Shown here one piece after another: positions 4,676 to 45,165 of a DNA stretch of 64,000 nucleotides. Where the stretch lies: contig OY987225.1 in assembly GCA_963920705.1 (NCBI GenBank), positions 6,956,175-7,020,174 of the forward strand, given 5' to 3'. The stretch is from Odiellus spinosus (taxonomy: Eukaryota; Arthropoda; Arachnida; Opiliones; Phalangiidae). Position numbers and translations under genes: made by a program. Under the pieces are notes generated by a model that ran no database searches, was not told the DNA's origin, and worked only from the letters and a program-made list of their open reading frames with translations. Each line of letters begins with the position of its first letter. Within the stretch, counting starts at the first letter, position 1.

Positions 4676-4704
4676 TTTTCGAGGACAGGTAGGGGTATGC
4701 CCGG

Positions 4705-11625: not shown

Positions 11626-11638
11626 TAGTTTCCCTGTG

Positions 11639-14600: not shown

Positions 14601-15327
14601 TCCCCCTGTGTTGTCTTCTCCTCGTTCTCCCCCTGTGTTGTCTTCTCCTCGTTCTCCCCCTGTGTTGTCTTCTCCTCGTTCTCCCCCTGTGTTGTCTTCT
14701 CCTCGTTCTCCCCCTGTGTTGTCTTCTCCTCGTTCTCCCCCTGTGTTGTCTTCTCCTCGTTCTTTTCCTCGTTCTCCCCCTGTGTTGTCTTCTCCTCGTT
14801 CTCCCCCTGTGTTGTCTTCTCCTCGTTCTTTTCCTCGTTCTCCCCCTGTGTTGTCTTCTCCTCGTTCTCCCCCTGTGTTGTCTTCTCCTCGTTCTCCCCC
14901 TGTGTTGTCTTCTCCTCGTTCTCCCCCTGTGTTGTCTTCTCCTCGTTCTCCCCCTGTGTTGTCTTCTCCTCGTTCTCCCCCTGTGTTGTCTTCTCCTCGT
15001 TCTCCCCCTGTGTTGTCTTCTCCTCGTTCTTTTCCTCGTTCTCCCCCTGTGTTGTCTTCTCCTCGTTCTCCCCCTGTGTTGTCTTCTCCTCGTTCTCCCC
15101 CTGTGTTGTCTTCTCCTCGTTCTTTTCCTCGATCTCCCCCTGTGTTGTCTTCTCCTCGTTCTCCCCCTGTGTTGTCTTCTCCTCGTTCTCCCCCTGTGTT
15201 GTCTTCTCCTCGTTCTCCCCCTGTGTTGTCTTCTCCTCGTTCTCCCCCTGTGTTGTCTTCTCCTCGTTCTCCCCCTGTGTTGTCTTCTCCTCGTTCTTTT
15301 CCTCGTTCTCCCCCTGTGTTGTCTTCT
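11639..15327. repeat. 27-bp minisatellite array (left part)
   Basis: Basic unit of 27 bp containing CCTCGTTCTCCCCCTGTG then TTGTCTTCT. Because 27 is a multiple of three and the unit holds no stop in the forward frames, several frames stay open for kilobases (PPVLSSPRS, VVFSSFSPC and CCLLLVLPL repeats). Early units (11639-11930) are more diverse, with GGGCCC-containing and CCCGTATTGGC variants. Later ones are near-uniform, mixed with a short CTTTTCCTCGTT insert variant. The strand is strongly pyrimidine-rich. The long open frames are a by-product of the period and I do not call them genes. Confidence 0.95.
12839..14514. repeat. Higher-order duplication (838 bp) inside the minisatellite
   Basis: Rare variants recur at a fixed spacing of 838 bp: CTCGATCTCC at 12839 and 13677, the one-base-short CTCCCCGTG near 13437 and 14275, the paired GTGATGTC units, and the CGTTCTTCTCCTC junction. 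An 838-bp block containing many units was therefore copied in tandem as a whole. Confidence 0.8.
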
Positions 15328-15384
15328 TTTTGTTTGTTTGTTTGTTTGTTTTATTAAACTTTGAGATATTACAATAAGATGATT

Positions 15385-15420
15385 AGAGGGCTAAGTCAGC
15401 TGGCGACTTGTAAGCCCTCT
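15385..15420 (-). other. 3'-UTR stem-loop of the LINE
   Basis: AGAGGGCT at 15385 pairs with AGCCCTCT ending at 15420, and inside it AAGTC pairs with GACTT around AGCTGGC. It lies about 35-55 bp from the tail. In several LINE clades a 3' hairpin is the RT recognition site; that role here is inference. Confidence 0.6.
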
Positions 15421-15567: not shown

Positions 15568-18276
15568 TTATAAATAGTAAGGGTTTTCATTATGAATAAA
15601 TAATTTAAGCAGATTTTTAAATTTTTGTCTAGTTGGGGCGGTTTGAACGGCTTTGTCAAGGCTGTTGAAGCTTTTTGCCCCTTGATATAAAAATGACGTT
15701 AGCTTTTTGCTGGTCTTACATTTTGGAAGTTTTAATAGGGTTCTAGCTCTAGTGTTTGTAACACTAGGATTTTTGGTCGTCAATCTAGATTCACCTAGGT
15801 CATCATAGATTAAAGTTAAAGTAGCCAGATACTGCTGCTGTTTGACCGTTAATATTTTACTTCTATTGAAAAGGGGCCTTGTATGGGCGCGGTAGGGGGC
15901 CTTATGTAATGATCTTACTGCCCTTTTCTGTAGTTTTTGGATACGGGCAATATTTTGATTGGTTGTGTTACCCCAAAGACAAATACCATAGGATAAGGTG
16001 GAGTGAAATAAGGAATGGTATATTTCCAAAAAAGCCTTTCTTGGAATCATGTTTTTACAGATATAAAAGAGACCACATAGTCTTGATAGTTTTTTGCAGA
16101 TGAAATCAACATGATCATTCCAAGAAAGATGGGGGTCAAACCACAGTCCCAAATATTTATATTTATCAACCATTTTTAATGCATGGCCATCAATGTGGAT
16201 GGCTTTTTCCTCCATCAATATATTTTTACCTCTATTTCTAAATATCATGTATTCACTTTTATCAAGATTTAGTCTGAGACCATTATTAGTCAGCCATCTA
16301 TGAATTATAGATAAGTAATCATTTGAGATATTCACTATATTTTCAAGGGTTTTACCCACTACCAAGAGCAAGGTATCATCTGCATATAGATACAAGAGTC
16401 CTTGCGAGATTAGGTTGGTGATATCATTAATATATAGATTAAACAGGATAGGTGAGATAATTGACCCTTGAGGAACGCCCGTTTTAAGAGTTGTTGGTAA
16501 TGATAGCGTGTTATTAGCCCGTGTATAACATTGTCTATTGGCGAGATAGCTTTGGATCCATTGTCCTGCCTTGCCTCTTATACCAAGCCGAGAGAGCTTG
16601 TCAACAAGTCTCTCATGGGGGACACTGTCAAAGGCTTTGCGCAGATCCAAAAATATCCCCAAACACATACTGCCCATGTCCAACGAATCAACAACCTTCT
16701 TATAAGTCTCCGCAGTAGCATTAATCGTTCCCCTACCTGAGCGGAACCCAAACTGGAACTCTGAAAGCAGCTTGCATTTATTTGAAAAAGATTCCAGGCG
16801 ATTAAAAAAAGCCTTGTCAAAGATCTTTGAGATAAAGGATAAAAGAGAAATCGGCCTATAATTAGAGGGATTTTTAGGATCGCCTTTCTTTAAGATAGGT
16901 ATGATTATGGTTCGTTTTAATTTTTCTGGGTACCGCCCTAGCGTAAAGGACAGATTTATGAGGAATACCAGTGGGATAATTAGCGCGTTGATGGCATATT
17001 TCATTGGGCGGGGGTGGAAGCCGTCGAAACCTGGTGCCGATCCCGAGGATAATTCTCTAGCAATGTTACTGATTTCCAGATTCGTTACCGGCAATAGTGC
17101 CATGGTTTTGGGGTTTATAGGGGGAAGGTCATAATCAAAGGTATTATCATTTGTTATGTTTTCAGAGGTGAAGTGGTTATTGAGCGTATTAACTTCAATT
17201 GGGATTTCCCGGCTAGCGTTAGTACTTCTTCCTAAAATATTGTTTATGGTTTTCCATTTCTCCTTCGCAGTGGTCGCCTCGTGTATTTTTTTATAGAAAA
17301 AGGAGTTTCGTTTATTTCTAAGTTTATTATTGGTGTGATTACGATGAGCTATATAACTCCTTATATTTAATGGGGTAGGGTTTCTTTTTGATATTTTTTG
17401 TAACCTATTCTTTTCCTTGATAAGGTATTTTAATTCCGACGTAAGCCATGACTCTTCTTTAATCACTAAAGTTGTAAATTCAAAAGTCTGATTATATTCA
17501 TTGGCAACTATTTTTTCAAAGTGATCGTAGGCCTCTTCAATATCTGTATGTTCATAGAGGTCTGCCCAATTAACCCTTGATAGATTTAGCGCAAATAAGT
17601 TAGAATTCTTATTACTTAGATTTCGAATTTTAATGGAATTTTGTTCACTGGCGTACGATCCCTTACAAATATGTATCGGGTAATGGTCAGTTATATCTAG
17701 CCCCGATAGTACCTTAATCTCAGCTATTGTGTTGCAAAATACATTATCTAAGCAGGTCGATGTGGTCGATGTTACCCGAGTTGGTTCCATTACACCTTGT
17801 TTAAGATCGAGGCTAGTGAACAAGTCAATTATTCCATTAATACATGGGGATTTAACAAGAAAATCAAAGTTAAAATCACCCATAATAAATTTGATTGCCT
17901 CCACGGGTATTTTGTGTAAGATTTCTTCACAGTATGATAAGAATAATTCATAGTTGGCTGAGTGTGGTCGATAGATTACAACTAGGTATTCTGAGTTAAT
18001 TTTAATAGCGAAGCTTTCAATATGTGTGTTGAAAAAGCATAAGTTATGCTGTACAGAGACAGACAGGTCGTTTTTACAATAGAAGCCAACACCGCCTCCA
18101 TTCCTTTCACCAGCCCCAAAAAAGGTAAAATTCGGTACATATAAAGAGACATTGTTTTTATACCACGTTTCTGTTAGAGCGAGAACATTATATTGTACGT
18201 CGAGGTTATCTAAATTCAGCATCAATGGCGTAAGGTTACGATTGGCACTTCTAATATTAGAATATGTTATATGCAT
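15568..18276 (-). CDS. LINE ORF2 protein: endonuclease + reverse transcriptase (CR1/Jockey group)
   Basis: A full 902-codon frame. Residues about 1-210 form an endonuclease/exonuclease/phosphatase fold: YSNIRSANRN at the start, LTETWY with the catalytic Glu, IIYRPHSANY-type core, FIMGDFNFDF and ITDHYPIHI at its end. RT motifs follow: SGSAPGFDGFHPRPMKY, YRPISLLSFISKIFDK, EFQFGFRSGRGTINA, LGIFLDLRKAFDSVPHERL (motif A), LKTGVPQGSIISPILFNLYI (motif B), LYLYADDTLLLV (catalytic YADD), and LNLDKSEYMIF. A thumb-like C-terminal part includes KYKYLGLWFDPHLSWNDHV. The protein nicks target DNA and copies LINE RNA there. Start chosen as the first ATG, 55 bp after ORF1. No stop or frameshift is seen. The clade is inferred from motif style and needs a tree. 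Confidence 0.92.
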   Translation of the reverse strand: MHITYSNIRSANRNLTPLMLNLDNLDVQYNVLALTETWYKNNVSLYVPNFTFFGAGERNGGGVGFYCKNDLSVSVQHNLCFFNTHIESFAIKINSEYLVVIYRPHSANYELFLSYCEEILHKIPVEAIKFIMGDFNFDFLVKSPCINGIIDLFTSLDLKQGVMEPTRVTSTTSTCLDNVFCNTIAEIKVLSGLDITDHYPIHICKGSYASEQNSIKIRNLSNKNSNLFALNLSRVNWADLYEHTDIEEAYDHFEKIVANEYNQTFEFTTLVIKEESWLTSELKYLIKEKNRLQKISKRNPTPLNIRSYIAHRNHTNNKLRNKRNSFFYKKIHEATTAKEKWKTINNILGRSTNASREIPIEVNTLNNHFTSENITNDNTFDYDLPPINPKTMALLPVTNLEISNIARELSSGSAPGFDGFHPRPMKYAINALIIPLVFLINLSFTLGRYPEKLKRTIIIPILKKGDPKNPSNYRPISLLSFISKIFDKAFFNRLESFSNKCKLLSEFQFGFRSGRGTINATAETYKKVVDSLDMGSMCLGIFLDLRKAFDSVPHERLVDKLSRLGIRGKAGQWIQSYLANRQCYTRANNTLSLPTTLKTGVPQGSIISPILFNLYINDITNLISQGLLYLYADDTLLLVVGKTLENIVNISNDYLSIIHRWLTNNGLRLNLDKSEYMIFRNRGKNILMEEKAIHIDGHALKMVDKYKYLGLWFDPHLSWNDHVDFICKKLSRLCGLFYICKNMIPRKAFLEIYHSLFHSTLSYGICLWGNTTNQNIARIQKLQKRAVRSLHKAPYRAHTRPLFNRSKILTVKQQQYLATLTLIYDDLGESRLTTKNPSVTNTRARTLLKLPKCKTSKKLTSFLYQGAKSFNSLDKAVQTAPTRQKFKNLLKLFIHNENPYYL

Positions 18277-18331
18277 TATCAGTTTTTTAAAAAAAGAAAA
18301 GAAAAAAATTCTCGGGTAGAAGTAATCTAGA

Positions 18332-19066
18332 TTAATGATCTTTTTTAACTACCGAACGAGAGGTTTCATTGTAATAATATTTATCATTTTCGAATTGGAC
18401 TAGGAAATTAGAAATAAATTTTGCCTTATCATTCCCGTGTTCTTTAATAAACTGCCTGAGAAAGAAACGAGACGTTTCTTGACGGGGTGTGAAATCTTGT
18501 GAAATATATACCTTGCAGCCCTTTAGCTTATATGCATTTTTTAAAATATCGTTTTTTATTGAAATATCAGGGAGCTTTAATACTATTTTCCTAAGAGTAT
18601 TCGCTGGTGAGGGTGGTCCTCGTCTGTACACTTGATATGGGCGAATTACGCCAATCCAGCCAAGCATGTCTTTGAGGAAGATTTCTAGTAAATTAGCTAA
18701 AGTATTACGGTCTTCACCATTTTTTTCCGCAATACCAGCAATAACCAGATTATTTCTCCTAGTTTCAGACGCTAACTGATTGACTTCAGATTGCAGATCG
18801 CTAATTACTTTATCTTTTTTTGCCATTAGATCATGTATATTATCCGAGAGATTTGCAAAGTTAAATACTACTGTCTCGTGCTCTAAGGCCTGTTCTTCAA
18901 GTTTGAGTATCCTATTCTCGTGGTTATCCACTTTTAATGTGAGAGAGTCTAACTTGTTATTAGTCATGTTAACCGCTTTGTTAACATTGGATATGTCAGC
19001 TTTGATATCGGCTTTCATACATTTAAGTTCATTGAATACATCTTGTAAGCTAACTTTATCAGTCAT
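18332..19066 (-). CDS. LINE ORF1 protein (coiled coil + RRM-like)
   Basis: A 244-codon frame just upstream of ORF2. Residues about 1-105 have heptad spacing (NKLDSLTLKVDNHENRILKL and ISDLQSEVNQLASETRRNN), which predicts a long coiled coil. Then comes LVIAGIAEKNGEDRN, typical of the RRM-like core of L1-type ORF1 (Transposase_22) and related proteins, followed by a C-terminal part with KGCKVYISQDFTPRQ. Such proteins form trimers or multimers, bind the LINE RNA and act as chaperones in the RNP. There is no CCHC knuckle. The frame is uninterrupted, in keeping with a young element. Confidence 0.85.
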   Translation of the reverse strand: MTDKVSLQDVFNELKCMKADIKADISNVNKAVNMTNNKLDSLTLKVDNHENRILKLEEQALEHETVVFNFANLSDNIHDLMAKKDKVISDLQSEVNQLASETRRNNLVIAGIAEKNGEDRNTLANLLEIFLKDMLGWIGVIRPYQVYRRGPPSPANTLRKIVLKLPDISIKNDILKNAYKLKGCKVYISQDFTPRQETSRFFLRQFIKEHGNDKAKFISNFLVQFENDKYYYNETSRSVVKKDH

Positions 19067-23723: not shown

Positions 23724-24260
23724 TTACCAGAGGCTGCCGCCTACGCCTAGGGTTGCGTCCCCTAGGTTCGGGAGACTGAATCCGGGGTGGGGTTCTGTCT
23801 CCTTCTCCCCATGGGATACGTTCATATTCCTCCATCGGATGACGTCCTGTCCGTCATGAGGGGCTTCGTCCAGAAGCGCTTGGTCCTCCAACCATGCCTC
23901 ACGTTGGCGTCGTTCCAGCTCCACGTCTGTTTCTCCTTCCATTCGGAGGATACGGGAGGGGGGCTTTTGGCTCGAGGAGCCACCAAAACGATAGTTTTTT
24001 TTCCTTTCCAATTAGGATGTTTCCGTAACAATTTTTCGTCTTCCGAAGGGAAGTTAATTGGAGATCCCATGCGGGATTGATGGGGTGCTTGAATAGAAAA
24101 CAAAGTTCTGGTCTACAAATGTGACAATAGTAATGGGGTAGTGCTTCTAAGATATCCAAGGTGATTCCAACGCAGATAACATGATATTGTTCCTCGCAAT
24201 TGTCGCATTGTACCCAATCAATTTGGGGTTCAAGAGAAAGAAAGAAGCCAAGGCCCGGAA
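23724..24260 (-). pseudogene. PHD-finger-like remnant and acidic tail
   Basis: Reading from about 24260 on the minus strand gives IDWVQCDNCEEQYHVICVGI and, 17 residues later, YYCHICRPEL. The spacing C-x2-C-x4-H-x2-C ... C-x2-C is that of a PHD finger from its second cysteine pair on, including the Trp before it. The first CxxC pair is not seen upstream, so the finger is incomplete. The frame continues for about 60 residues, then shifts near 24005 to a charged region (MEGETDVELERRQREAWLED). PHD fingers read histone H3 tails. It lies 0.4 kb downstream, on the same strand, of the MBD remnant of a Ty3/gypsy element. It may be part of it or an unrelated gene piece; context does not decide. Confidence 0.45.
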
Positions 24261-24469
24261 CTCGACTAAGGCGCGAAGAAAAAGCGCCTTAAGCGGCGGA
24301 CGTCACGTAACCGTTTGTAATTTTATTTTTGAGCAAGAAACCATTTTGATGGCCACGTCCCCAAAAACCGATCCTCTGTATTTCGAAAACTACTTACTCA
24401 ATAGTTGGATCTATAAACGGGGAGGAAATTTTGGAGAAAGAGTTCTCGCGACGTCATACCTTGTCTAGT

Positions 24470-24654: not shown

Positions 24655-25028
24655 TTTCATAATAAAGATGGGGAACGCAGACGTTTAGAGTTCGGGCCAG
24701 GTGGATAATAATAAACATCTAATCCAGCCTTGCTTAAAAGGTTCCTTATAACGCTCATGTAAGGTGCTAATTAGTGAAGGATCATTAGTATTATCTTCTG
24801 CAGAAGATAAGGTAAATAATCTCATATCGTGTTGTGTTCGAAGAAGAACGGGAGGGTCTGAGAATAATTCAAAACCAGGTTCTGAAGTATCGATAAGTGA
24901 TTCTAACGATGGACTTCGTGTACTAGGAGGGGTTTCTATTGTACCTGCTTCACTTGAGGATCGCAGTTCATTATAACTATCTTGGATTTGGACAGACTGA
25001 TGACCTAGGATTTCAGACTGCTTGATCA
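24655..25028 (-). pseudogene. Methyl-CpG-binding-type (MBD) domain remnant behind gypsy integrase
   Basis: A single frame from 25028 to about 24724 begins one base out of register with the end of the integrase frame, so a single frameshift near 25015-25028 separates them. It runs through a Ser/Glu-rich linker and LISTLHERYKEPFKQGWIR, then after a frameshifting deletion near 24722 continues DVYYYPPGPNSKRLRSPS. GW-I-R followed by DVYYY..P and K-RLRS is the MBD signature (compare DxYYxSPxGxRxRS). The deleted part is the strand that carries the first DNA-contacting arginine. A stop follows shortly. Domain identity is from motif recognition. A second, better preserved copy of the same arrangement is at 32418-32935. 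Confidence 0.65.
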
Positions 25029-26562
25029 GGAATTTCCTTAGAAAGGGTATTGGGGACGTTAGATGAAGTCTGCGCGCTGACCTCAGCTGTTGATGTTAAA
25101 TGAGTACTCGATTGGCCGATCGAATCCTCAGTAGCTGGTATATCTGTATCCTCTACCATAAGTCTTTCATCAAGGAAAACTGTATCATTGTTCCAATACA
25201 GTTTGAGTTGAGAGATATGAGTGGTGCCTATAATTTCACCTGTTTCTATGTCTGCTAACTCATATACTAAAGGAGATTGTTTATCTACTATTTTGTAAGG
25301 TCCTTTCCATTTCGGACTTAATTTTGCCATAAAACCTGATGCTGCCTGGGACAAAGGAAAAAGTTTCCTTCCAGACAAGTGTTCCAATATTATATTCTAT
25401 CGGATCTCGCTTCTGATCATAATAAAGTTTTTGTCTCTTTTGATCTATCTCTGCTAATTTTTTGGATAATTTAAGTTGATCATGGAGAATTTTAATGGTT
25501 TTTTGCACGATCCATATCTTGGGGTAGTTCTAACTCATATTCAGAGTCAATTTCCCAAGGATTACGTGGTTCTCTGCCGTAATTTAAATAAAATGGTGAT
25601 CTACCTGTTGTATCGTGAGGAATTGAGTTTATTGCAAATGCAATTAAAGGTAAAAAATCACATCGGCGATGGTGTCTACCGACATACATGGAAATTGTTT
25701 CACCTAGTATTCTATTTATTCTCTCTGTCAAATTAGTCTGTGGTTGGTATGGTGTAGTGAAAACAATTTTAAAGAGACGGCAAGTGTCAGCCCAAAGTTG
25801 TGATGTAAATTGAGAACCTTGATCTGATAGGATTTTAACTTTAGCGCCCCATCTACAAATTAAGTTTCGAAGAGCTGTAGCACAAGTGTCCGCTGTCACT
25901 GATTTTAGGGGTATTAACTCAACATACTTTGTCATGTAATCAACAAATACTAATAGATAATTGTTGCCATTATGACTACGAGGCAAAGGACCCATGATGT
26001 CAACCCCGATCATGCTCCATGGAGCGGAAAGCTCTGTTGACATCATCAATCCAGGCTTACGTCTGTTTCTTGATTTATATTCTTGACAAATTCTACATCC
26101 TCTAATGTAATCAGCCACATCCTTATTCATAGAAGGCCACCAAAATCTATTCTTAATTTTAATTAAACTCTTATCCCGACCTCTATGAGCTGAAAGAGGT
26201 TGATCATGTACCAATCTCAGAGCTTCGCGTCTGAGAGAAAGAGGTGAATAAATCAGATTTGAGCCTCCTCTAACTGGACGATAATATAAAATGTCATTTG
26301 TCAATTCATAGAGGCGATTATATGGTTGGTTTTTATCCTTGAGCGTGTCTATAATTCGACGTAGAATCGTATCTTCATGTTGGGCTCGTTGTATATCGGC
26401 TCGAGTAAAAACATGAAAATTTGCATGTGGACCAGGAACAAAAGCGTCGATTAGGGATGAACTAACCTCCGTAGAGGAATCAACTACGGATCCACTAGAT
26501 AAATCTAAACTAGAATTGGTAGATTCAAGGGTGGAAGATCTTTGGTTGTTAGATACTCTAGA
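25013..26562 (-). pseudogene. Ty3/gypsy pol: integrase, 5'-truncated and frameshifted
   Basis: Coding starts at about 26562 with no RT or RNase H upstream and runs 26304-25492 without stops. The zinc-binding H2C2 domain is HDQPLSAHRGRDKSL ... CRICQEYKS. The catalytic core has IGVDIMGPLP (D), ILSDQGSQFTS (D) and NLTERINRILGE (E), so the DDE triad is present. The C-terminal part lies in two further frames (25508-25281 and 25387-25013) and includes FMAKLSPKWKGPYKIVDKQ and IGTTHISQLKLYW, the usual post-integrase barrel of gypsy elements. At least two frameshifts (near 25500 and 25370) inactivate it. The enzyme joins element cDNA to host DNA. No LTRs were recognised. It is a relative, not a copy, of the integrase at 32.9-34.5 kb. 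Confidence 0.88.
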
Positions 26563-26734
26563 GATTTGTAATGGTCAATACAATCTGAAGCCGGAGATGT
26601 AGTTTTTTTCCGCCAAAAATCGTGATGCGCTTTAAGCTTGATCTATCCGCTCTGTCGCCAGGTGTTTCGTTCACATGTGTGCTTATAGAGAGCGCTCAAC
26701 TCGCGCTCGAGAGGAAAAAAGGTAAACAAGGAAA

Positions 26735-31089: not shown

Positions 31090-32333
31090 GTTTAGTATGC
31101 GGAAATCTTCATCTCTACGAAGTCGAACACAACGCTAACCTTCGTGGGTACTATTGAATGAGCTATAACCAAGGCACTGGGGGTCGACATAAACGCGTCG
31201 CGAACATGGTCCATCGAGTGAAAAGAAACCATGGGGGAGAAACCAAAACAAGCATTGGGGAATAACTGCAATACCCTTTTCAAAAAAAAATTAGTACTGG
31301 TGAAGTTCAAAAATAATATACGGTGGTCCCAAGCTAGCTCCTCCTCCAAAAGGGATAGCAGATCGGGGTATGCCTCATAGCACGCGTGGGGAAACTACTC
31401 GATACCTACAACCATTACCGGTTGACAAAAACGACGCGCGATACGCAGCTGGACTCGCGCCACTTCCTATTGTACCAGTTTTGGAACCATTTGAATTGAG
31501 TGGCTGTAATCCAAACCAATACCCCAAATTCCCATAATTTTTGAATGGGCCAAAGCATTCAATAAAAGTTGTTCCGCCCCAAAAGATTCGTAGCGACCCG
31601 CGAAACTCGGGCCAATACCGACTACCGCATAAAAATCCGCGTCCCTTAAGATAGCTTCTAAACGGTCCCAATTCAATTCGTCAATTACCCCACCCAAATG
31701 CGTTACGCAACCCACTAAACTGGCAGGGAAAAATCCGGGGTTTCGGGCCCTAAACTCCGCGAAGGGTATTCTACAAGACGTTACTCGGCGAAAAAGCGAG
31801 AGTTCAAAATACGGGTCAACGTAATCGAAATCTTCAGCGGAGTCCACCGGGTAACGTGGCGGAACTGACAAACGCCAATCTGGAACTCCTGACGGCCGAC
31901 GCGGGAGGAACACCTGATAACTCGATGCAGCTTCAAGCCTGGTAACCCCAACCTCTTGATGATCCAAAGTCCGTACAACGGCGGTCGTCGAATTGCCTGC
32001 GCACCCGTCAATGATCGGATGGACATCAGCGAGTAATACTTGCCTGCCCGTGGTTGGTCGTGCGTCTACCACTTCCAGGCCTTCAACGGGATACTGCTCT
32101 GCCGAGGAATCGAAGCCCATAGGAGATTCTTCGTCCAACCGTGTCTCCAATTCAGTCGTTTCCTCCAAGATATCACCCATCCTGGCCTCCAATCCAGCCA
32201 CATTCATACGACTAACTTGACAATCTCCCAAAAACGCCTCACGGAATTCGACAGTTGCCTCTGGATCATTCAAATTTAATTCATCCGGATCCGGAGTAGG
32301 GGGTAAGGAGAATTTGGCCGCCAGACGTGACAT
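31090..32333 (-). pseudogene. TatD-like (metallo-dependent hydrolase fold) protein, metal ligands lost
   Basis: The ATG at 32333 directly follows a T-run plus AG that looks like a splice acceptor. Residues 1-170 are low-complexity, acidic then Pro/Arg-rich. A TatD-like barrel follows: DFDYVDPYFELSLFRRV where active members have DxHxHL, VGCVTHLGGVID, YAVVGIGPSFAGRYESFGAE, then IWGIGLDYSHSIQMVPKLVQ where active members have GEIGLDY. After a TAG at about 31464-31466 it goes on in the same frame: QLRIARRFCQPVMVVG, a second TAG, EELAWDHRILFLNFTSTNFF, LFPNACFGFSPMVSFHSMDH. Every expected metal ligand seems replaced (HxH, E, H of VIHxR, H of HCF, final D) while the surrounding text stays family-like. 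Resembles TATDN2-type genes expanded in invertebrates. Shares frame with the MBD ORF and the nuclease-like region. Confidence 0.6.
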
Positions 32334-32417: not shown

Positions 32418-32935
32418 TTAATGGGCATGACGGACTAACTCATATGGGGGTCTTGAAATTGGATTTGGTGACATCGAAAAATTATCAATAGTCAATCCCT
32501 TAGAATCCAAAGGATACGACTGTAAATATGCTTCTATCTGCTTCAAGGACCTTAATTTTTCTTTCACCTTATCCGGGGTATAATAGTAAACGTCTCCCAA
32601 ACGCGATGATGGTTGTTTCCTTAAAACCACTTCCCTAGTCCAACCATGGAAAAATGGCAACTGCGATACACTAATGTTGTCCTGCTCCTCGACCTCCATA
32701 CACCTAGGCTCCTCGCGAAACTGACTATCGGGAATCACCAAAACTTCATCCATAAATCTAACTCTACGTCGAGGGTTACTATGTCGTATACTTAGGTTGA
32801 CACCCCTCTCATCTACCACCTGGGGCCAACTCGTTCCTCCATCGCTTCCTCGCTCGGAAACTCGACCACTACACTCGATCCACCAACCTGGGTATGGTAG
32901 GTCTCTCGAACCACACGACTGCGTAGCGTATAACG
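32418..32935 (-). pseudogene. Methyl-CpG-binding-type (MBD/TAM) domain fused to gypsy integrase
   Basis: After the integrase stop at 32936-32938 the same frame continues RYTLRSRVVRETYHTQVGGS for about 35 residues, then one frameshift near 32855 leads into an open frame ending at 32418. That frame holds RRRVRFMDEVLVIPDSQF, an acidic linker, and an MBD: HGWTREVVLRKQPSSRLG, DVYYYTPDKVKEKLRSLKQI, EAYLQSYPLDSKGLTIDNF. The counterparts of the residues that contact methyl-CpG in MBD1/MeCP2 are present: Arg in LRK, Asp and Tyr in DVYYY, Arg in KLRS. I infer an integrase tail that could read methylated DNA, in the way chromodomains do in chromoviruses. A related but more decayed MBD sits in the same place in the element at 24.6-26.6 kb, so this is not a chance fusion. 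Confidence 0.72.
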
Positions 32936-34545
32936 CTAGGGATCTAAAACGACCTCTTCTTCCTCAACTCCTAACTCATTTTCCAATGGAATTGGCGGAA
33001 CTAAGTCATTATTTATAGGAGTTCCCTGGGTGGCCAACTCCTGTCCAGATGGGTGTACCTGCGCTATTGGTAGTTCCTGAGGTGCCACCACTGGTATAGA
33101 AGGATCCACCTGAGCAACTGTTTGTTCCTGAGTGTCCAAAACTACCGTATTCATACAGAGCTTTAATTTCGAAATATGCCACGTACCAACCAAGGCACCT
33201 GTCTCTAAGTTCATTATCATATAGGCTACTGGGGACACCTTCTCTACAACTCTAAAAGGACCTTCCCAATTAGGAGCTAGTTTGGCACTAAATTTCGCAG
33301 CAGCATTAGAAAGTCTATGACCAGACTTCCAGACTAGTTGCCCTACTTCTAACTTGCTTCCTGAGTAATTCCGATCATAGAAAAATTTCTGTTTCGCACT
33401 GGCAACACTATTTACTTCCTGGGCCATATCAATTGCTCGTTGCCATTCTCTTAATGGACCTTGTTCATAATCTAAGATTTCTAAAACCTCCTCATCAGGA
33501 ATTCCAACAAATACTCTCTCATCCCTAGGAAGCGTAGGCTCATATCCATGGTGAAGGTAAAACGGGGAATATCCGGTCGAACAATGTACAACGCTATTAA
33601 CTGCTGACTGAATTAAAGGCAAGTGGGCATCCCAAGTAGTATGAACATTCCCAGCGTAAATACTCATTATTTCCTCAATTACTCTATTACACCTCTCCGT
33701 CATGTTAGCCTGGGGATGGTATGGTGACACGAATTTAAGTTTAATTTTCAACATCATACATAACCGTTTCCATAAACCTGAAATAAACTGGGGCCCGTTG
33801 TCCGACAAAATAGCTGACATAATCCCATGGCGCGACACATACTGCAACAGAACCTTGCATAATATTAGGGCCGTAACACTCCTTACAGGGAAAACCTCTA
33901 CGTATTTCGTAAAATAATCCACCATGACTATTAAAAATCGGTTCTGCTGCTTCGTCACGGGAAGGGGGCCCATTATATCTATCCCGACCAAGTCTCCTGG
34001 GTGAATTTTATGAGATGGAATCATTAACCCTGGCTTCTTTGTATTTCTACTTTTGTATCGTTGGCATGTTTCACAATTCTGTACGTATTTCTGAACCAAG
34101 GAATACAATCTAGGATGGTAATATTTAGCCTGAACTCTCATGTAAGTTGCGGTACGACCCCTATGACCTGATAGAGGGTGACTATGAAAAGCCTGCATTA
34201 ACCTAGGAACTAATTCAGTAGGCACCACAACTTTAGCTGGTTTAAATCCTTCCGCCTTTCTATAAAGCAAATCGTCTTTAATACAGTATACCTTAGAATC
34301 TCCACCTCTTTCTAACTTGCCCTTTATTTCGCTAAATTGATCTTCTAACAACTGCGCCTGTTTTATCTCTGCCAAGGTAACATAATCCAGAGGTTGTCCA
34401 AGGTCTACAGGGTTACAAATTGACATGTTCAAGCGAAAAGCGTCCAAAGATTGATTATCTGGCATGGGAAGTGCTGATAAATCTGAACCTATATAATCGC
34501 TATCTATAACCTTAGGACATACAACATCTAGGTCGGAAACTCCTT
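32936..34545 (-). pseudogene. Ty3/gypsy integrase (intact catalytic core, element truncated)
   Basis: An open frame of at least 509 codons (34465-32936), readable back to a stop near 34546. H2C2 zinc domain: AFHSHPLSGHRGRTATYMRV ... NCETCQRYKS. Core: LVGIDIMGPLP (D), AILSDNGPQFIS (D), NMTERCNRVIEEIMS (E). The C-terminal region has SAKLAPNWEGPFRVVEK and VGTWHISKLKLC, then a Gln/Val/Pro-rich linker with repeated QxVAQVxPSxPVVAP-like text leading toward the MBD. Protease, RT and RNase H are missing between this and gag, replaced by about 500 bp of noncoding sequence. The integrase itself has no stops, but without RT the element cannot move alone. No LTRs recognised. Confidence 0.92.
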
Positions 34546-35059: not shown

Positions 35060-35697
35060 TCACAAATCATCCAACGTCGTGCAACTATCCACAGATATCA
35101 ATAATTGAACCATCGGTGGAACCTTGGAAAGCGAAAGCTTAACCAACTCTTCCTCTACTAAAGGGGAATCTAATAACCTATAAATGCCTACTATTCGCTT
35201 ACGAAACATCCATAAATCCTCCCCAACGTTTTGCGTGGCACTGTATAGTGATATCCGAATAGAGTGTTCCCGACTTTGTGATAAATATCGAGTTTTAAAA
35301 GCCAACGCCAAAGTATTCCACGAAATATTCTCGCCATTCCTAAGAAAAAACTCTTCTATCCAAATCTTAGCACTGTCCGTAAAAATCAGAGGGCATAACA
35401 TCGGTAAATCATCCTTACGTATTCTGTGATATAAAATAAAATTCTCTAAGGTTTTCAAAAACAATTTCGGATCTTCCTGGGTATCACCGGAGAAAGTAGG
35501 CATTTTCATGTGGGCTACGAGAACAGCTGGAATTTCCCTTGGAACTCGTTCCTCACCACTAATCTGATCTATATCATTATGACTCGAAGACCTAACCCTT
35601 GAATCTAACGGAACTCCTGGGCATCTTTGAGGTTGAGGAACTGAGGGACAACTAGGTAAAGGATTATCCACCCCTTGATTGAACTCATCACGAGCCT
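35060..35697 (-). pseudogene. Ty3/gypsy gag (capsid) fragment
   Basis: A 203-codon frame from 35671, readable to about 35697. After a Pro-rich N-terminus it reads HMKMPTFSGDTQEDPKLFLK then ENFILYHRIRKDDLPMLCPL, FTDSAKIWIEEFFLR and NTLALAFKTRYLSQS, the typical retrotransposon gag capsid pattern (P-x-F-x-G...F...F...L.A..W...L..F...Y). The frame ends after TTLDDL with no CCHC knuckle, so the nucleocapsid is missing. It lies on the same strand as, and upstream of, the integrase. The upstream side is cut exactly where a plus-strand LINE starts. Gag would build the virus-like particle. Confidence 0.72.
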
Positions 35698-35895
35698 GTG
35701 TCTATCCTAATTTGTCGTTCAATGTCTCGCTGGCGCTGTCTCGTAAAAAAATTGCGCTTTGAAACCAAATTATATGCTAAAAAACATAGCTTTAAATTTG
35801 TTTGGATAAATAACGGTAGAGTATTGCTTAGAAAAGATAGCAATGATAAAATTTACAAAATCTTAACGTTACAAGATCTCAAACAGATTAAATAA
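35698..35895 (+). pseudogene. LINE ORF1 C-terminal piece (FP_C-like)
   Basis: 65 codons: RFETKLYAKKHSFKFVWINN then GRVLLRKDSNDKIYKI and LKQIK. This is the characteristic end of ORF1 proteins with a Baculo_FP-like C-terminal domain in CR1-like elements (ETKxYAKKxxYKFVWxKNGxVxxRK). The rest of ORF1 is lost to 5' truncation. It is followed after 67 bp by ORF2. Confidence 0.65.
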
Positions 35896-35962: not shown

Positions 35963-38900
35963 TGGATTACCCTAACCTTGACTTTTCGAATTTAAAAAAC
36001 TTCCAAAGTCATGACCAATATCCTGAGATTGTAAAAAAAACAAATGTAATATAATTAACACGTACACTAATGGCCTAAAAATATTCCATACCAACGTGCG
36101 AAGCATTTCGAAGAACTTTGACGAATTAAATATACTGTTAAGTACTCTCGACATTGACTTGGACTTAATCATACTAACTGAATGTTGGCTAGGTGATCTA
36201 AACCCAAATGTATTCCATCTACCTGGATATCAAAGTTGTTTCACCACTAATTTTGTAAACCAAAATGATGGTCTCGTAGTTTTCTCAAGATCTTATTTAA
36301 ATATTGAAAATACAGAAATTAATATAGGAGGTGTTAATACTATTTACCTCGACATTAAAGAGAATAATCAAATAATTCATAGGTTTATTTGTGCTTACCG
36401 ATCTCCATCAAATAACTTTTTAGAATTTCTACCTAACCTTGATAAACTACTCAACGATTATAACAAATTAAATATCCAAAATACATACCTAATAGGTGAC
36501 TTTAATTTAAATATATTGTCACCTGAAGTGAGGGATGGAACTGCTGAGTATTTAGATATTCTTAGCCTACATGGATTCATTTCGTTAATTAATAATCCTA
36601 CAAGAATATCGGGAAATTCAAAAACATGCTTAGACCATTGCTTTATCAAATCTAGAATAAATATGGAATTCGAAAGTTCAATACTTGAAAACTTCATAAC
36701 AGACCATTATCCAATACTTATTAATGTAAATAGTACGTACGCTAAACCAAAAATCGTTAAGGAAATTTTTCAGCAAACCAAAGTAGATTATGTTAAGTTA
36801 AATATGCTGCTACAATTTGAAAACTGGCTAACAGTTCACAAAACAAATGAAGTAAACATTGCCCTAAATAACTTTATAAATACCTTGAATTTTTACATTA
36901 AATTAGCAACTATTGTCAGTAACACTGAACCAGTACTTAATGATCCTAGGGTTTTGAAACTCAAAAAACCCTGGATGACAGTGGGCCTAATCACTTCGAT
37001 TAAGGTTAAAGACAAATTAAAATTAAAATGTATTAAAGAGCCTTTCAATATAAATCTTAAAACTAAGTATATAAAATATAGGAATAAACTAAATACCTTG
37101 ATAAAAAACACCAAATCAAATTTTTTTAAAAATAAAATTGAGAGAGCTAACGGAAACAGTAAAAAAATATGGCAAACTATAAATGTTGCTTCTTCCAGGA
37201 CAAAGCCAAAAATTCCCATATCAAAAATATTTAGCAATTCTGACAACACTATTATAAACATGGAAAAAGACCCGATTAAATGTGCCAATGTATTCAACGA
37301 CTACTTTTCTAAAGTAGGTAGTATCTTAGCTAGTGATATATTGTTAAATCAAAATACGAATAACCCTCAACTTACCACACATCATAGTAAATCAATTGAA
37401 AATTCGTTATTTCTTACGCCAGTTGACGAATACGAAGTGAACGCAATAATAAGCAAATTAAAGCAAAACTCTGCCACTGGTCACGATAAGATAAGTTCAA
37501 TTACTCTAAAAAACGTCGCAAACAATGTTAAATTTCCCCTTACCTATATCATCAATCTGTGTTTCTCAGAGGGAATATTCCCAGATACATTGAAATTAGC
37601 CATTATTTCTCCTATTTATAAGGCAGGAAATCCCCTAGAAGTACACAACTATAGACCAATATCAATTTTGAGTCACCTTTCCAAAATACTTGAAACATGT
37701 ATTAAGTCCCGATTAACAAACTTTCTAGCTAAGCAAAACAATATCTCTAAAAATCAATTTGGTTTCCAAAAAGGAACAAATACGAATGACGCTATTTATA
37801 AATTTACTAAAACGATCATTTCCGCCATGGATAAAGGTAAAAAGACTTTGGCAATTTTTTTGGATCTTGCGAAAGCCTTTGATACGATATCCCATACTCG
37901 ACTTCGGACAAAACTGGAAAAATGTGGAGTTAGAGGCATCCCATTAAAATTATTTAATAGTTATTTATACAAAAGAAAACAACTTACACGCCTAAACAAC
38001 TATTACAGTTCTCCATCCTACATTACTTACGGTGTCCCACAAGGAACAATCTTAGGACCTATATTGTTCCTGATTTATATTAACGAATTCTGTAACATGG
38101 ACCTATCAGACTCACTCACCTCCTTCGCTGATGATACAGTTTTAACTTATATCGGAGAAACTTGGGATGATGTCTACGTAAAAGCAAACAAAGGCCTTCA
38201 AAAAACAAAAAAAGTACTAGATAATGAATTGCTTAGTTTAAATATTAACAAAACAAAATATATTGCCTTTTCCTTAAGAAAAATGACAGAATCCCTTGAT
38301 AGTAAAAAGATAAAATTACATAACTGTGATCATTTAAATTGTTGCGCGATGTGCAGGGAGATAGAAAAAACAACCTCAATAAAATACCTTTGTCTACATA
38401 TAGACTCAAACCTAAAATGGAATATCCACATAAAAGCTTTAACAAAAAACTTAAGATATATAGCATACACAATAATAACTTTAAATAGATTTCTAAATCC
38501 TAAACTAATTCGCATGGTCTATTTTGCGTTGGTCCAGTCTATAATCAATTACGGAATTATTGCCTGGGGTAACGCAAACTACACTACTTTACGCCCATTA
38601 ATTGTTTTACAAAATAAGATCCTACGCACTTGTCTGCACAAGCCCTATGATTACCCAACAAAACAACTATATCATGAATTCAAAATTATGTCAATTGCTC
38701 AACTTTACTCGTTTCAAGTATTATTGGACGGTTTCCAAAAACGTTTTAAAGATTACAAAATAACTCACTTAAGAAGTACAAGATCGGTAGATCAAAAAAA
38801 TCTTGTACTGCCCAAAGTCTCAACTACATTAGCACAAAGTCATGCTTCCTACTATGCGTTAAAATTATTTAATAATCTTGACCGAAGTTTAAAGTCCATA

Positions 38901-38966
38901 AATGACTACAATGAATTTAAATTAAGCTTAAAGATTGGATATATAAGATGGCCTAATAACTTTTAA
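35963..38966 (+). CDS. LINE ORF2 protein: endonuclease + reverse transcriptase (CR1/Jockey group)
   Basis: Open for 956 codons from 36096. The first 30-40 codons (ATG at 35963) are separated by a stop or frameshift near 36050. Endonuclease: FHTNVRSISKNFDELNI, LIILTECWLGD (catalytic Glu), YRSPSNNFLEFL, TYLIGDFNLNIL, TKTCLDHCF-type core and FITDHYPIL. RT: NSATGHDKISSITLKNV, NYRPISILSHLSKILE, NQFGFQKGTNTNDAIY, LAIFLDLAKAFDTISHTRL (motif A), ITYGVPQGTILGPILFLIYI (motif B), SFADDTVLTYI (catalytic FADD), LNINKTKYIAFS. It has the usual hydrophobic thumb and C-terminus. The core is intact but the truncated ORF1 and damaged start make it non-autonomous. AT-rich codon use fits the surroundings. Confidence 0.88.
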
Positions 38967-39451: not shown

Positions 39452-40032
39452 CATGGTAGGGGCGGTGGTCACGCGCCAATCCACCAGCTGTTGGAGCTCG
39501 GAGAGCACCCTGTTTATAATAATAATAATTTAGTAAGTTACATTAAGAGCTGGTGAAGAGCTCATTAGCCAAGTACCGTGTACCCCAGACGTCATTAGCA
39601 GCCAGGCAGCTCGTCGGATCCTTGTTGTTCCGCACAACCGAATGGACCTGATCTAGGGCAGCGACAGGATACTCCCCGTAATGATTCTCGTACCGCCCGG
39701 CGAGATGCTGGAAGTTGGCGAGAATGCTACAAATATATATATATAAATAAATTATAAAAAAAAATACTATTTGAGCTTGAGAAGTTGATGAAACTTGACT
39801 GAGTGGGCGTTAGGCCCATGGTTTGGTCCCATGTGGTTTAACCACGGTTGGTCTGGCCGGTCCGGGGTATCAATTATGGGGTAGGCGGGTGAATGGCGGC
39901 GGGCTGTGGCGACGGGGTTCCTCTACGCTGGAGAGCTCCCGCTCGCTGCTCCGGGGTCGCGGCTGGATACCCCTCCTCCCAAAAAGGGGCTTCATATTCC
40001 CCGCCTATGCGGACGGGGCTAGCGGTTGGCGG
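39275..40032 (-). CDS. Unrecognised GC-rich gene with very short introns, running into the gap
   Basis: From the gap edge the minus strand reads RIGGEYEAPFWEEGYPAATP. After a frame change near 39925 comes RNPVATARRHSPAYPIIDTP then HSVKFHQLLKLKY, ending at a donor GTATTT at about 39769. An intron of about 45 bp (AT-rich, ending TTTGTAG at 39725) joins in phase to ILANFQHLAGRYENHYGEYP ... NKDPTSCLAANDVWGTR. A donor G/GTACTT (about 39575) and acceptor ATAAACAG (39509) would join in phase to VLSELQQLVDWRVTTAPTMD, with an intron of about 67 bp. If unspliced, the second exon ends at ELFTSS-stop. The last part contains the 74-bp repeats. I do not recognise the family. The high GC contrasts with all neighbours and suggests a different origin. 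The 5' part is lost in N. Confidence 0.35.
39460..39460. other. Compositional boundary
   Basis: GC content rises sharply from the LINE tail (39190) to the gap (40032), apart from the short AT-rich putative introns. Confidence 0.4.
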
Positions 40033-40232
40033 NNNNNNNNNNNNNNNNNNNNNNNNNNNNNNNNNNNNNNNNNNNNNNNNNNNNNNNNNNNNNNNNNNNN
40101 NNNNNNNNNNNNNNNNNNNNNNNNNNNNNNNNNNNNNNNNNNNNNNNNNNNNNNNNNNNNNNNNNNNNNNNNNNNNNNNNNNNNNNNNNNNNNNNNNNNN
40201 NNNNNNNNNNNNNNNNNNNNNNNNNNNNNNNN
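40033..40232. other. Assembly gap (200 N)
   Basis: Exactly 200 N, probably a placeholder of unknown true length between the GC-rich gene and the 14-bp satellite. Confidence 0.98.
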
Positions 40233-43200
40233 ACCGGATTTGAAAAACCGGATTTGAAAAACCGGATTTGAAAAACCGGATTTGAAAAACCGGATTTGAA
40301 AAACCGGATTTGAAAAACCGGATTTGAAAAACCGGATTTGAAAAACCGGATTTGAAAAACCGGATTTGAAAAACCGGATTTGAAAAACCGGATTTGAAAA
40401 ACCGGATTTGAAAAACCGGATTTGAAAAACCGGATTTGAAAAACCGGATTTGAAAAACCGGATTTGAAAAACCGGATTTGAAAAACCGGATTTGAAAAAC
40501 CGGATTTGAAAAACCGGATTTGAAAAACCGGATTTGAAAAACCGGATTTGAAAAACCGGATTTGAAAAACCGGATTTGAAAAACCGGATTTGAAAAACCG
40601 GATTTGAAAAACCGGATTTGAAAAACCGGATTTGAAAAACCGGATTTGAAAAACCGGATTTGAAAAACCGGATTTGAAAAACCGGATTTGAAAAACCGGA
40701 TTTGAAAAACAGGATTTGAAAAACAGGATTTGAAAAACAGGATTTGAAAAACAGGATTTGAAAAACAGGATTTGAAAAACAGGATTTGAAAAACAGGATT
40801 TGAAAAACAGGATTTGAAAAACAGGATTTGAAAAACAGGATTTGAAAAACAGGATTTGAAAAACAGGATTTGAAAAACAGGATTTGAAAAACAGGATTTG
40901 AAAAACAGGATTTGAAAAACAGGATTTGAAAAACAGGATTTGAAAAACAGGATTTGAAAAACAGGATTTGAAAAACAGGATTTGAAAAACAGGATTTGAA
41001 AAACAGGATTTGAAAAACAGGATTTGAAAAACAGGATTTGAAAAACAGGATTTGAAAAACAGGATTTGAAAAACAGGATTTGAAAAACAGGATTTGAAAA
41101 ACAGGATTTGAAAAACAGGATTTGAAAAACAGGATTTGAAAAACAGGATTTGAAAAACAGGATTTGAAAAACAGGATTTGAAAAACAGGATTTGAAAAAC
41201 AGGATTTGAAAAACAGGATTTGAAAAACAGGATTTGAAAAACAGGATTTGAAAAACAGGATTTGAAAAACAGGATTTGAAAAACAGGATTTGAAAAACAG
41301 GATTTGAAAAACAGGATTTGAAAAACAGGATTTGAAAAACAGGATTTGAAAAACAGGATTTGAAAAACAGGATTTGAAAAACAGGATTTGAAAAACAGGA
41401 TTTGAAAAACAGGATTTGAAAAACAGGATTTGAAAAACAGGATTTGAAAAACAGGATTTGAAAAACAGGATTTGAAAAACAGGATTTGAAAAACAGGATT
41501 TGAAAAACAGGATTTGAAAAACAGGATTTGAAAAACAGGATTTGAAAAACAGGATTTGAAAAACAGGATTTGAAAAACAGGATTTGAAAAACAGGATTTG
41601 AAAAACAGGATTTGAAAAACAGGATTTGAAAAACAGGATTTGAAAAACAGGATTTGAAAAACAGGATTTGAAAAACAGGATTTGAAAAACAGGATTTGAA
41701 AAACAGGATTTGAAAAACAGGATTTGAAAAACAGGATTTGAAAAACAGGATTTGAAAAACAGGATTTGAAAAACAGGATTTGAAAAACAGGATTTGAAAA
41801 ACAGGATTTGAAAAACAGGATTTGAAAAACAGGATTTGAAAAACAGGATTTGAAAAACAGGATTTGAAAAACAGGATTTGAAAAACAGGATTTGAAAAAC
41901 AGGATTTGAAAAACAGGATTTGAAAAACAGGATTTGAAAAACAGGATTTGAAAAACAGGATTTGAAAAACAGGATTTGAAAAACAGGATTTGAAAAACAG
42001 GATTTGAAAAACAGGATTTGAAAAACAGGATTTGAAAAACAGGATTTGAAAAACAGGATTTGAAAAACAGGATTTGAAAAACAGGATTTGAAAAACAGGA
42101 TTTGAAAAACAGGATTTGAAAAACAGGATTTGAAAAACAGGATTTGAAAAACAGGATTTGAAAAACAGGATTTGAAAAACAGGATTTGAAAAACAGGATT
42201 TGAAAAACAGGATTTGAAAAACAGGATTTGAAAAACAGGATTTGAAAAACAGGATTTGAAAAACAGGATTTGAAAAACAGGATTTGAAAAACAGGATTTG
42301 AAAAACAGGATTTGAAAAACAGGATTTGAAAAACAGGATTTGAAAAACAGGATTTGAAAAACAGGATTTGAAAAACAGGATTTGAAAAACAGGATTTGAA
42401 AAACAGGATTTGAAAAACAGGATTTGAAAAACAGGATTTGAAAAACAGGATTTGAAAAACAGGATTTGAAAAACAGGATTTGAAAAACAGGATTTGAAAA
42501 ACAGGATTTGAAAAACAGGATTTGAAAAACAGGATTTGAAAAACAGGATTTGAAAAACAGGATTTGAAAAACAGGATTTGAAAAACAGGATTTGAAAAAC
42601 AGGATTTGAAAAACAGGATTTGAAAAACAGGATTTGAAAAACAGGATTTGAAAAACAGGATTTGAAAAACAGGATTTGAAAAACAGGATTTGAAAAACAG
42701 GATTTGAAAAACAGGATTTGAAAAACAGGATTTGAAAAACAGGATTTGAAAAACAGGATTTGAAAAACAGGATTTGAAAAACAGGATTTGAAAAACAGGA
42801 TTTGAAAAACAGGATTTGAAAAACAGGATTTGAAAAACAGGATTTGAAAAACAGGATTTGAAAAACAGGATTTGAAAAACAGGATTTGAAAAACAGGATT
42901 TGAAAAACAGGATTTGAAAAACAGGATTTGAAAAACAGGATTTGAAAAACAGGATTTGAAAAACAGGATTTGAAAAACAGGATTTGAAAAACAGGATTTG
43001 AAAAACAGGATTTGAAAAACAGGATTTGAAAAACAGGATTTGAAAAACAGGATTTGAAAAACAGGATTTGAAAAACAGGATTTGAAAAACAGGATTTGAA
43101 AAACAGGATTTGAAAAACAGGATTTGAAAAACAGGATTTGAAAAACAGGATTTGAAAAACAGGATTTGAAAAACAGGATTTGAAAAACAGGATTTGAAAA

Positions 43201-45078
43201 ACAGGATTTGAAAAACAGGATTTGAAAAACAGGATTTGAAAAACAGGATTTGAAAAACAGGATTTGAAAAACAGGATTTGAAAAACAGGATTTGAAAAAC
43301 AGGATTTGAAAAACAGGATTTGAAAAACAGGATTTGAAAAACAGGATTTGAAAAACAGGATTTGAAAAACAGGATTTGAAAAACAGGATTTGAAAAACAG
43401 GATTTGAAAAACAGGATTTGAAAAACAGGATTTGAAAAACAGGATTTGAAAAACAGGATTTGAAAAACAGGATTTGAAAAACAGGATTTGAAAAACAGGA
43501 TTTGAAAAACAGGATTTGAAAAACAGGATTTGAAAAACAGGATTTGAAAAACAGGATTTGAAAAACAGGATTTGAAAAACAGGATTTGAAAAACAGGATT
43601 TGAAAAACAGGATTTGAAAAACAGGATTTGAAAAACAGGATTTGAAAAACAGGATTTGAAAAACAGGATTTGAAAAACAGGATTTGAAAAACAGGATTTG
43701 AAAAACAGGATTTGAAAAACAGGATTTGAAAAACAGGATTTGAAAAACAGGATTTGAAAAACAGGATTTGAAAAACAGGATTTGAAAAACAGGATTTGAA
43801 AAACAGGATTTGAAAAACAGGATTTGAAAAACAGGATTTGAAAAACAGGATTTGAAAAACAGGATTTGAAAAACAGGATTTGAAAAACAGGATTTGAAAA
43901 ACAGGATTTGAAAAACAGGATTTGAAAAACAGGATTTGAAAAACAGGATTTGAAAAACAGGATTTGAAAAACAGGATTTGAAAAACAGGATTTGAAAAAC
44001 AGGATTTGAAAAACAGGATTTGAAAAACAGGATTTGAAAAACAGGATTTGAAAAACAGGATTTGAAAAACAGGATTTGAAAAACAGGATTTGAAAAACAG
44101 GATTTGAAAAACAGGATTTGAAAAACAGGATTTGAAAAACAGGATTTGAAAAACAGGATTTGAAAAACAGGATTTGAAAAACAGGATTTGAAAAACAGGA
44201 TTTGAAAAACAGGATTTGAAAAACAGGATTTGAAAAACAGGATTTGAAAAACAGGATTTGAAAAACAGGATTTGAAAAACAGGATTTGAAAAACAGGATT
44301 TGAAAAACAGGATTTGAAAAACAGGATTTGAAAAACAGGATTTGAAAAACAGGATTTGAAAAACAGGATTTGAAAAACAGGATTTGAAAAACAGGATTTG
44401 AAAAACAGGATTTGAAAAACAGGATTTGAAAAACAGGATTTGAAAAACAGGATTTGAAAAACAGGATTTGAAAAACAGGATTTGAAAAACAGGATTTGAA
44501 AAACAGGATTTGAAAAACAGGATTTGAAAAACAGGATTTGAAAAACAGGATTTGAAAAACAGGATTTGAAAAACAGGATTTGAAAAACAGGATTTGAAAA
44601 ACAGGATTTGAAAAACAGGATTTGAAAAACAGGATTTGAAAAACAGGATTTGAAAAACAGGATTTGAAAAACAGGATTTGAAAAACAGGATTTGAAAAAC
44701 AGGATTTGAAAAACATGATTTGAAAAACAGGATTTGAAAAACATGATTTGAAAAACATGATTTGAAAAACATGATTTGAAAAACATGATTTGAAAAACAG
44801 GATTTGAAAAACATGATTTGAAAAACATGATTTGAAAAACATGATTTGAAAAACATGATTTGAAAAACATGATTTGAAAAACATGATTTGAAAAACATGA
44901 TTTGAAAAACATGATTTGAAAAACATGATTTGAAAAACATGATTTGAAAAACATGATTTGAAAAACATGATTTGAAAAACATGATTTGAAAAACATGATT
45001 TGAAAAACATGATTTGAAAAACATGATTTGAAAAACATGATTTGAAAAACATGATTTGAAAAACATGATTTGAAAAAC
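40233..45078. repeat. 14-bp satellite, about 346 copies, three variant blocks
   Basis: Unit AACNNGATTTGAAA of 14 bp. Block 1 (40233 to about 40705): AACCGGATTTGAAA. Block 2 (about 40706 to 44714): AACAGGATTTGAAA, almost without variation for 4 kb. Block 3 (about 44715-45078): AACATGATTTGAAA, with two block-2 units mixed in near its start. The boundary of blocks 1 and 2 is sharp. Three units (42 bp) make 14 codons with no stop on the minus strand, so all three minus frames look open (FFKSCFSNPVFQIL-type text); these are not genes. Confidence 0.97.
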
Positions 45079-45165
45079 GTTCTTCTACGGTTCATTTTAC
45101 CCTAAAAGGGTAGTTTTTTCCCAAACCAGAATGTTTTTTCGATGGTTGAGAGACTGCTGAAGATA

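Follow-up and report, generated by a model that had tools for sequence, protein, structure and literature searches.

A Ty3/gypsy retrotransposon lineage with a methyl-CpG-binding domain after the integrase in Odiellus spinosus

The window analysed here is a stretch of 64,000 nucleotides from the genome of Odiellus spinosus, and all features of the central element, element A, are situated on its minus strand. The integrase frame of this Ty3/gypsy element extends from stop to stop over 535 amino acids (32936..34543, minus strand). It comprises a zinc-binding H2C2 domain, a DDE core and an SH3-like C-terminal domain, recognised by Pfam as Integrase_H2C2 (69.5 bits), rve (48.2 bits) and SH3_Tf2-1 (31.6 bits); the DDE core is open and the frame stops at 32936, as an initial sequence-only reading of the locus had stated. 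A single stop and a single change of frame lead to a second frame (32418..32963, minus strand), in which a methyl-CpG-binding domain (MBD) occupies 32460-32672. The MBD pattern that had been picked out by eye after the integrase is borne out by Pfam, in which MBD (PF01429) matches the frame 32418-32963 with 39.6 bits and an E value of 4e-10, against a curated cut-off of 21, and with 41.9 bits when 32421-32693 is scanned alone. Among sequences of solved structure, the frame matches BAZ2A (E 0.0028) and MBD2 (E 0.0078) best. Scored with a profile built on the MBDs of 13 other gypsy copies, its own row excluded, the window MBD reaches 78.6 bits, whereas the top score of this profile among 60 simulated 64-kb sequences (first-order Markov, with the composition of the 20-40 kb part of the window) was 14.1 bits, which excludes a chance match. 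The positions of methyl-CpG contact read RDYRS in the window MBD, and the Arg, Asp, Tyr and Arg counterparts proposed earlier agree with the MBD2 alignment and with a column check. A single-sequence AlphaFold model of the domain had a mean pLDDT of 38.2 and was not used. Assignment of the window MBD to a copia fragment was considered and rejected, as it clusters with the gypsy MBDs.

Element A is a broken relic: between integrase and MBD lie a stop and a frame change, and a third reading frame, ORF3, is interrupted too. The ORF3 consists of a TatD-like piece (31467..32333, minus strand; TatD_DNase 14.5 bits) and a further piece (31092-31394, minus strand; 12.7 bits), both below the Pfam cut-off of 27, and this region shares 72% DNA identity over 677 bases with another copy, L072. 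Upstream of the integrase, a Gag-like piece (35060..35701, minus strand; Retrotrans_gag 24.3 bits, cut-off 24.1) is a putative member of the element, and a 78-aa frame between the two gave no Pfam match. The gap of only ~0.5 kb is too small for a reverse transcriptase (RT) upstream of the integrase, and the window copy retains none. The sequence-only reading had described an integrase, a stop, a short stretch continuing in the same frame and then one frameshift into the MBD. Comparison with relatives agrees with this account: in the copy at C1:2198940, residues 46-180 of the window MBD frame match within a long frame, and residues 2-47 match in another frame.

A second gypsy pair of integrase and MBD, element B (24657-26574), is present in the window in decayed form. 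Its Ty3/gypsy integrase frame (25492..26574, minus strand) shows 64-68% blastp identity to the integrases of loci L031-L036, described below, and falls within the clade of MBD-gypsy integrases in the tree. About 0.7 kb downstream of the integrase frame lies a decayed remnant of the core strand region of the MBD (24657..24770, minus strand), which scores 25.4 bits with the gypsy MBD profile and 14.6 bits with the first MBD profile, while the overlapping frame 24688-25095 scores 11.4 bits with the gypsy MBD profile. We also note a PHD finger frame (23899-24288, minus strand; 29.4 bits, cut-off 24) situated ~0.4 kb downstream of the MBD remnant.

A search of the genome (443 Mb, 286 contigs) for MBDs gave 150 scored matches among 415 candidates, and 70 of the 150 were fetched, namely the 30 top-scoring, 20 hand-chosen and the 20 next-best. 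Loci were typed by blastp against gypsy integrases from the window and the integrase and RT sequence of L017, a copia element by its Pfam domains (gag_pre-integrs, rve, SH3_retrovirus, MBD and RVT_2 in this order). The 70 loci are made up of 52 copia, 16 gypsy, L001 and L046, counts that do not represent genome proportions because the fetch was non-random. L001 has neither integrase nor RT and is a BAZ2-like exon in the MBD tree, and L046 has an MBD with no integrase within reach. Copia elements of the L017 type, in which the MBD comes after the integrase and before RT, make up the 52 and are common in the genome. A single frame unites integrase and MBD in 7/16 gypsy loci (L031-L036 and L044); H2C2, rve and MBD occur together in single frames of L044, L034 and L032. 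L048 has H2C2 and rve, with RNase H and integrase in one frame, and Pfam MBD is found at E <=0.001 in all 14 gypsy copies scanned. The first reading would have fallen if full-length relatives ended Pol before the MBD; among the 70 fetched MBD loci, seven instead have the two fused in one open frame, and the proposed element family with an MBD at the integrase tail holds.

When the window MBD frame itself was used as the query, 150 scored matches of 306 candidates were obtained, among which 136 rows, corresponding to 133 places, reach the MBD. Frames of at least 1200 aa surround 31 of the 133 places, one of them (C261) with an internal stop. Six of the 31 were inspected: L031, L033, L034 and L035 are gypsy by integrase, L071 is assigned to gypsy from the SH3 tail of its integrase and an RVT_1 further upstream, and L072 is typed as gypsy only through the similarity of its tail DNA to L071 and the window. 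With the window MBD frame, the copy at C1:2198940 shares 84% identity over residues 46-180, and this part lies in an open frame of 1381 aa. Its upstream piece (L076) contains RVT_1 (108.3 bits) and RT_RNaseH (117.1 bits) and its downstream piece (L071) SH3_Tf2-1 followed by the MBD; the two pieces were scanned separately and the integrase core lies outside both, H2C2 and rve being known from other copies. The MBD-gypsy family has the Ty3/gypsy gene order, in which RT and RNase H precede the integrase in one Pol frame.

The region downstream of the MBD differs between copies. L072 has, after the MBD frame, an ORF3 that is open for 427 aa and carries a TatD-like nuclease domain (L072:760-2040, minus strand; TatD_DNase 78.2 bits). 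In L071, the shared 3' block comes after the MBD, without ORF3. We take the block common to L071, L072 and L073 after the coding part for the 3' LTR, an assignment made from the 3' side of the copies. What we take to be the usual metal-binding motifs of TatD look altered by eye in the ORF3 of both the window (31092-32333) and L072, so the TatD-like protein may be inactive; a literature search on a TatD-like ORF3 brought up a single paper, whose title points to another subject. A different long frame, with a zinc-knuckle-like stretch (motif by eye), follows the MBD stop in L034, and the accessory ORFs after the MBD hence vary between lineages.

Three copies, L034, L035 and L036, have 4.2 kb in common at 98.6-99.9% identity. 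A common 3' end, TTACA, is observed within each of the sets L034/L035/L036, L033/L050 and L071/L072/L073, beyond which the flanks differ. These MBD-gypsy copies are separate insertions, and the near-identical copies with different flanks indicate that some of them are recent. L072 meets, at its 3' end, the RNase H frame of another MBD-gypsy (L047) in the manner of a nested insertion, and the 3' end of L071 adjoins a Mutator-like transposase frame; these neighbours are two cases and no test of targeting.

The columns R, D, Y, R and S of the MBD alignment are those that we take to be the methyl-CpG contact residues of the MBD fold. All five are present in 11/14 gypsy MBD rows, with a single change each in L039, L047 and L033, and likewise in 11/14 copia rows. 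Fourteen alignment columns, including P, F, G, W, two R, D, Y and S, are invariant in the 14 gypsy MBDs, some of which are near-copies of one another. The MBD dN/dS is 0.07-0.30 in 10 of 12 pairs, the other two being saturated. It is lower than the dN/dS of the preceding linker in 9/9 pairs with both values finite, although the pairs are not independent and the MBD dS exceeds 1, near saturation, in 6 of the 9. These values show purifying selection on the gypsy MBD, which has been conserved across integrases separated by deep divergence. A separate observation is that the MBD dS (1.2-2.3) is higher than that of the preceding linker (0.5-1.1) in 6/6 pairs among L031, L032, L034, L037, L038 and L042, as if MBD tails had been swapped between elements, with values that are near saturation.

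The gypsy and copia MBDs have different nearest relatives. Compared with PDB sequences, the gypsy MBD profile scores 47.8 bits with BAZ2B, 44.7 with BAZ2A and 35.7 with MBD2, while the copia MBD profile scores 72.3 bits with MBD2, 65.3 with MeCP2 and 34.9 with BAZ2B; the TAM (MBD-like) domain of BAZ2A and BAZ2B thus provides the best solved relatives of the gypsy profile, in contrast to the copia type. A tree of 32 MBDs, built on 79 columns with one MBD2 as the sole stand-in for its family, separates the gypsy and BAZ2 domains from those of copia and MBD2 with support of 99/98. The gypsy MBDs are found on one side of a branch in 11% of bootstrap trees, and their grouping is not rejected (AU p 0.558). 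A single group of gypsy and copia MBDs apart from BAZ2 and MBD2 is not rejected either (AU p 0.141), so that separate capture of the two is favoured, with moderate confidence, and not proved.

Within the gypsy lineage, 13 MBD-gypsy integrases form one clade against 60 public integrases (SH-aLRT 97, quick tree), with deep splits inside. The public set consists of the first of 120 listed sequences to align over 220 residues and includes no MBD-less gypsy of the same genome; the clade may partly reflect a single genome and the selection of loci for an MBD. Because the sampled integrases form one clade, the MBD was, most simply, captured once in the gypsy lineage, a point that the short MBD tree does not decide. 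A protein database returned 147 relatives of the element A integrase frame, and no precomputed MBD domain is annotated in the 120 listed; candidates were limited to 0.55-1.75x the query length, a range that full-length Pol would escape. Protein database searches with the MBD gave no matches.

We consider it likely, from the fused frames and the retained contact residues, that this Ty3/gypsy lineage has a Pol whose terminal MBD tethers the integrase to methylated CpG. The MBD would travel as the integrase tail within the pre-integration complex and bind symmetrically methylated CpG in the host, and new copies would land in methylated chromatin. Methylated gene bodies or older methylated elements would be the candidate target sites in an invertebrate. 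The genome contains DNMT1-like exons (95.7 bits to a DNMT1 chain) and a DNMT2-like exon. The search for DNA methyltransferases (2 matches of 6 candidates) showed no DNMT3, which is weak evidence of absence because the search runs exon by exon. The observed/expected CpG ratio is 0.89 in the window, with medians of 0.98 in 13 gypsy loci and 1.12 in 49 copia loci. Values around 1 speak against prolonged and heavy germline methylation of the sampled elements; the young age of the copies could also account for them.

The alternative that survives best is that the MBD-like domain contacts DNA or chromatin irrespective of methylation and gives the integrase a general clamp on DNA or a tether in the nucleus. 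The TAM domain of BAZ2 proteins is not known to be specific for methylated DNA, and the affinity of the gypsy MBDs to BAZ2B and BAZ2A in the profile comparison, their grouping with BAZ2 in the 32-row tree and the CpG ratio near 1 all speak for a role of this kind. Methyl specificity of the gypsy MBD is not given by this kinship, since the contact residues are altered in the host chromatin proteins: in the alignment, BAZ2A has changes at both Arg and at Asp, and BAZ2B has Glu for Asp. Unlike them, the gypsy copies largely keep the R, D, Y, R and S positions lost in BAZ2A and partly lost in BAZ2B, and this retention, together with the low dN/dS of the MBD, makes the clamp or tether an unlikely, if serious, contender. 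A still less probable function is the countering of host silencing, in which Pol or a cleaved MBD would compete with host MBD proteins at methylated copies. The reader residues are kept in a genome with a DNMT1-like gene, as this explanation would have it, and the other sequence facts bear on it equally; the MBD, however, follows the integrase in copia as well as in gypsy despite their different gene orders, the integrase preceding RT in copia, which suggests that the position after the integrase is what matters and argues for a role with that enzyme. That chance nesting or transduplication placed a functionless piece of a host gene or a copia MBD next to a gypsy integrase is hardly credible and is rejected on the one-frame copies (L031-L036 and L044): the window is rich in repeats and element pieces and its copy is broken, but the same arrangement recurs in 16 of the 70 loci fetched, with a single frame in 7, and in the second element of the window, alongside purifying selection and the single integrase clade.

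The tethering of integrase by an MBD has a parallel in chromoviruses, in which, as Gao et al. reportedly described, a chromatin-mark reader is fused to the integrase C-terminus of Ty3/gypsy elements. The present lineage likewise has a reader domain at the integrase C-terminus of a Ty3/gypsy element, and differs in that the reader is an MBD and not a chromodomain; no chromodomain (PF00385) was found in the integrase and MBD frames scanned. The comparison drawn in the sequence-only reading is therefore fair as an analogy, by which the MBD tail would do with a DNA-methylation reader what the chromodomain does in chromoviruses. The MBD-bearing arthropod retrotransposon family of de Mendoza et al. 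is said to be Copia. The copia elements of the present genome share with it the capture of an MBD, which in them lies after the integrase. In contrast to the published Copia family, the element described here is Ty3/gypsy, with RVT_1 and RNase H upstream and the MBD at the end of Pol. According to its title, the study of de Mendoza, Pflueger and Lister (2019, Genome Res 29:1277) concerns an MBD, functionally active, that a family of arthropod retrotransposons had captured, and a review cites that work on how strongly the centipede S. maritima is methylated. KnitGypsy-Dnmt3 (de Mendoza et al. 2018, PMC5890265) has a Gypsy Pol frame with Dnmt3 under purifying selection (Ka/Ks <0.2). Here too a Gypsy Pol took in a cytosine-methylation protein that is kept by purifying selection, with a reader (MBD) in the present case and a writer (DNMT) in KnitGypsy-Dnmt3. 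No report of a Ty3/gypsy element with an MBD was found by title or abstract start in the open-licence literature. Of the earlier remark that no gypsy family of such architecture had been described, the part concerning Ty3/gypsy thus stands within that literature, where it is apparently a new variant, while the capture of an MBD by retrotransposons was already published.

DNA methylation is usually seen as a host means of silencing transposons, and a second retrotransposon superfamily with a long-kept reader on its integrase points to use of the mark by the elements as a landing signal. A wider proposal, which we advance tentatively and regard as falling slightly short of an even prospect, is that the gypsy and copia superfamilies independently took readers from different host genes, BAZ2-like and MBD2-like, respectively, both at the integrase tail and both steering insertion to methylated DNA. 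If true, this convergence at the integrase tail would make DNA methylation a transposon targeting signal and not only a silencing mark. The presence of gypsy-MBD and copia-MBD elements in one genome, several with intact frames, offers a natural test of convergent targeting, for which MBD-less gypsy elements would serve as controls.

The window also contains other repeats. LINE-like frames were recognised by eye at 3107-4717, 15568-18348 and 51645-53159, and a further LINE-like frame at 36027-38966 contains RVT_1 (115.4 bits). Long tandem arrays at 11466-15390 and 39874-45101 are open in several frames, with repeat units of the RTRRRQHRG and FFKSCFSNP types.
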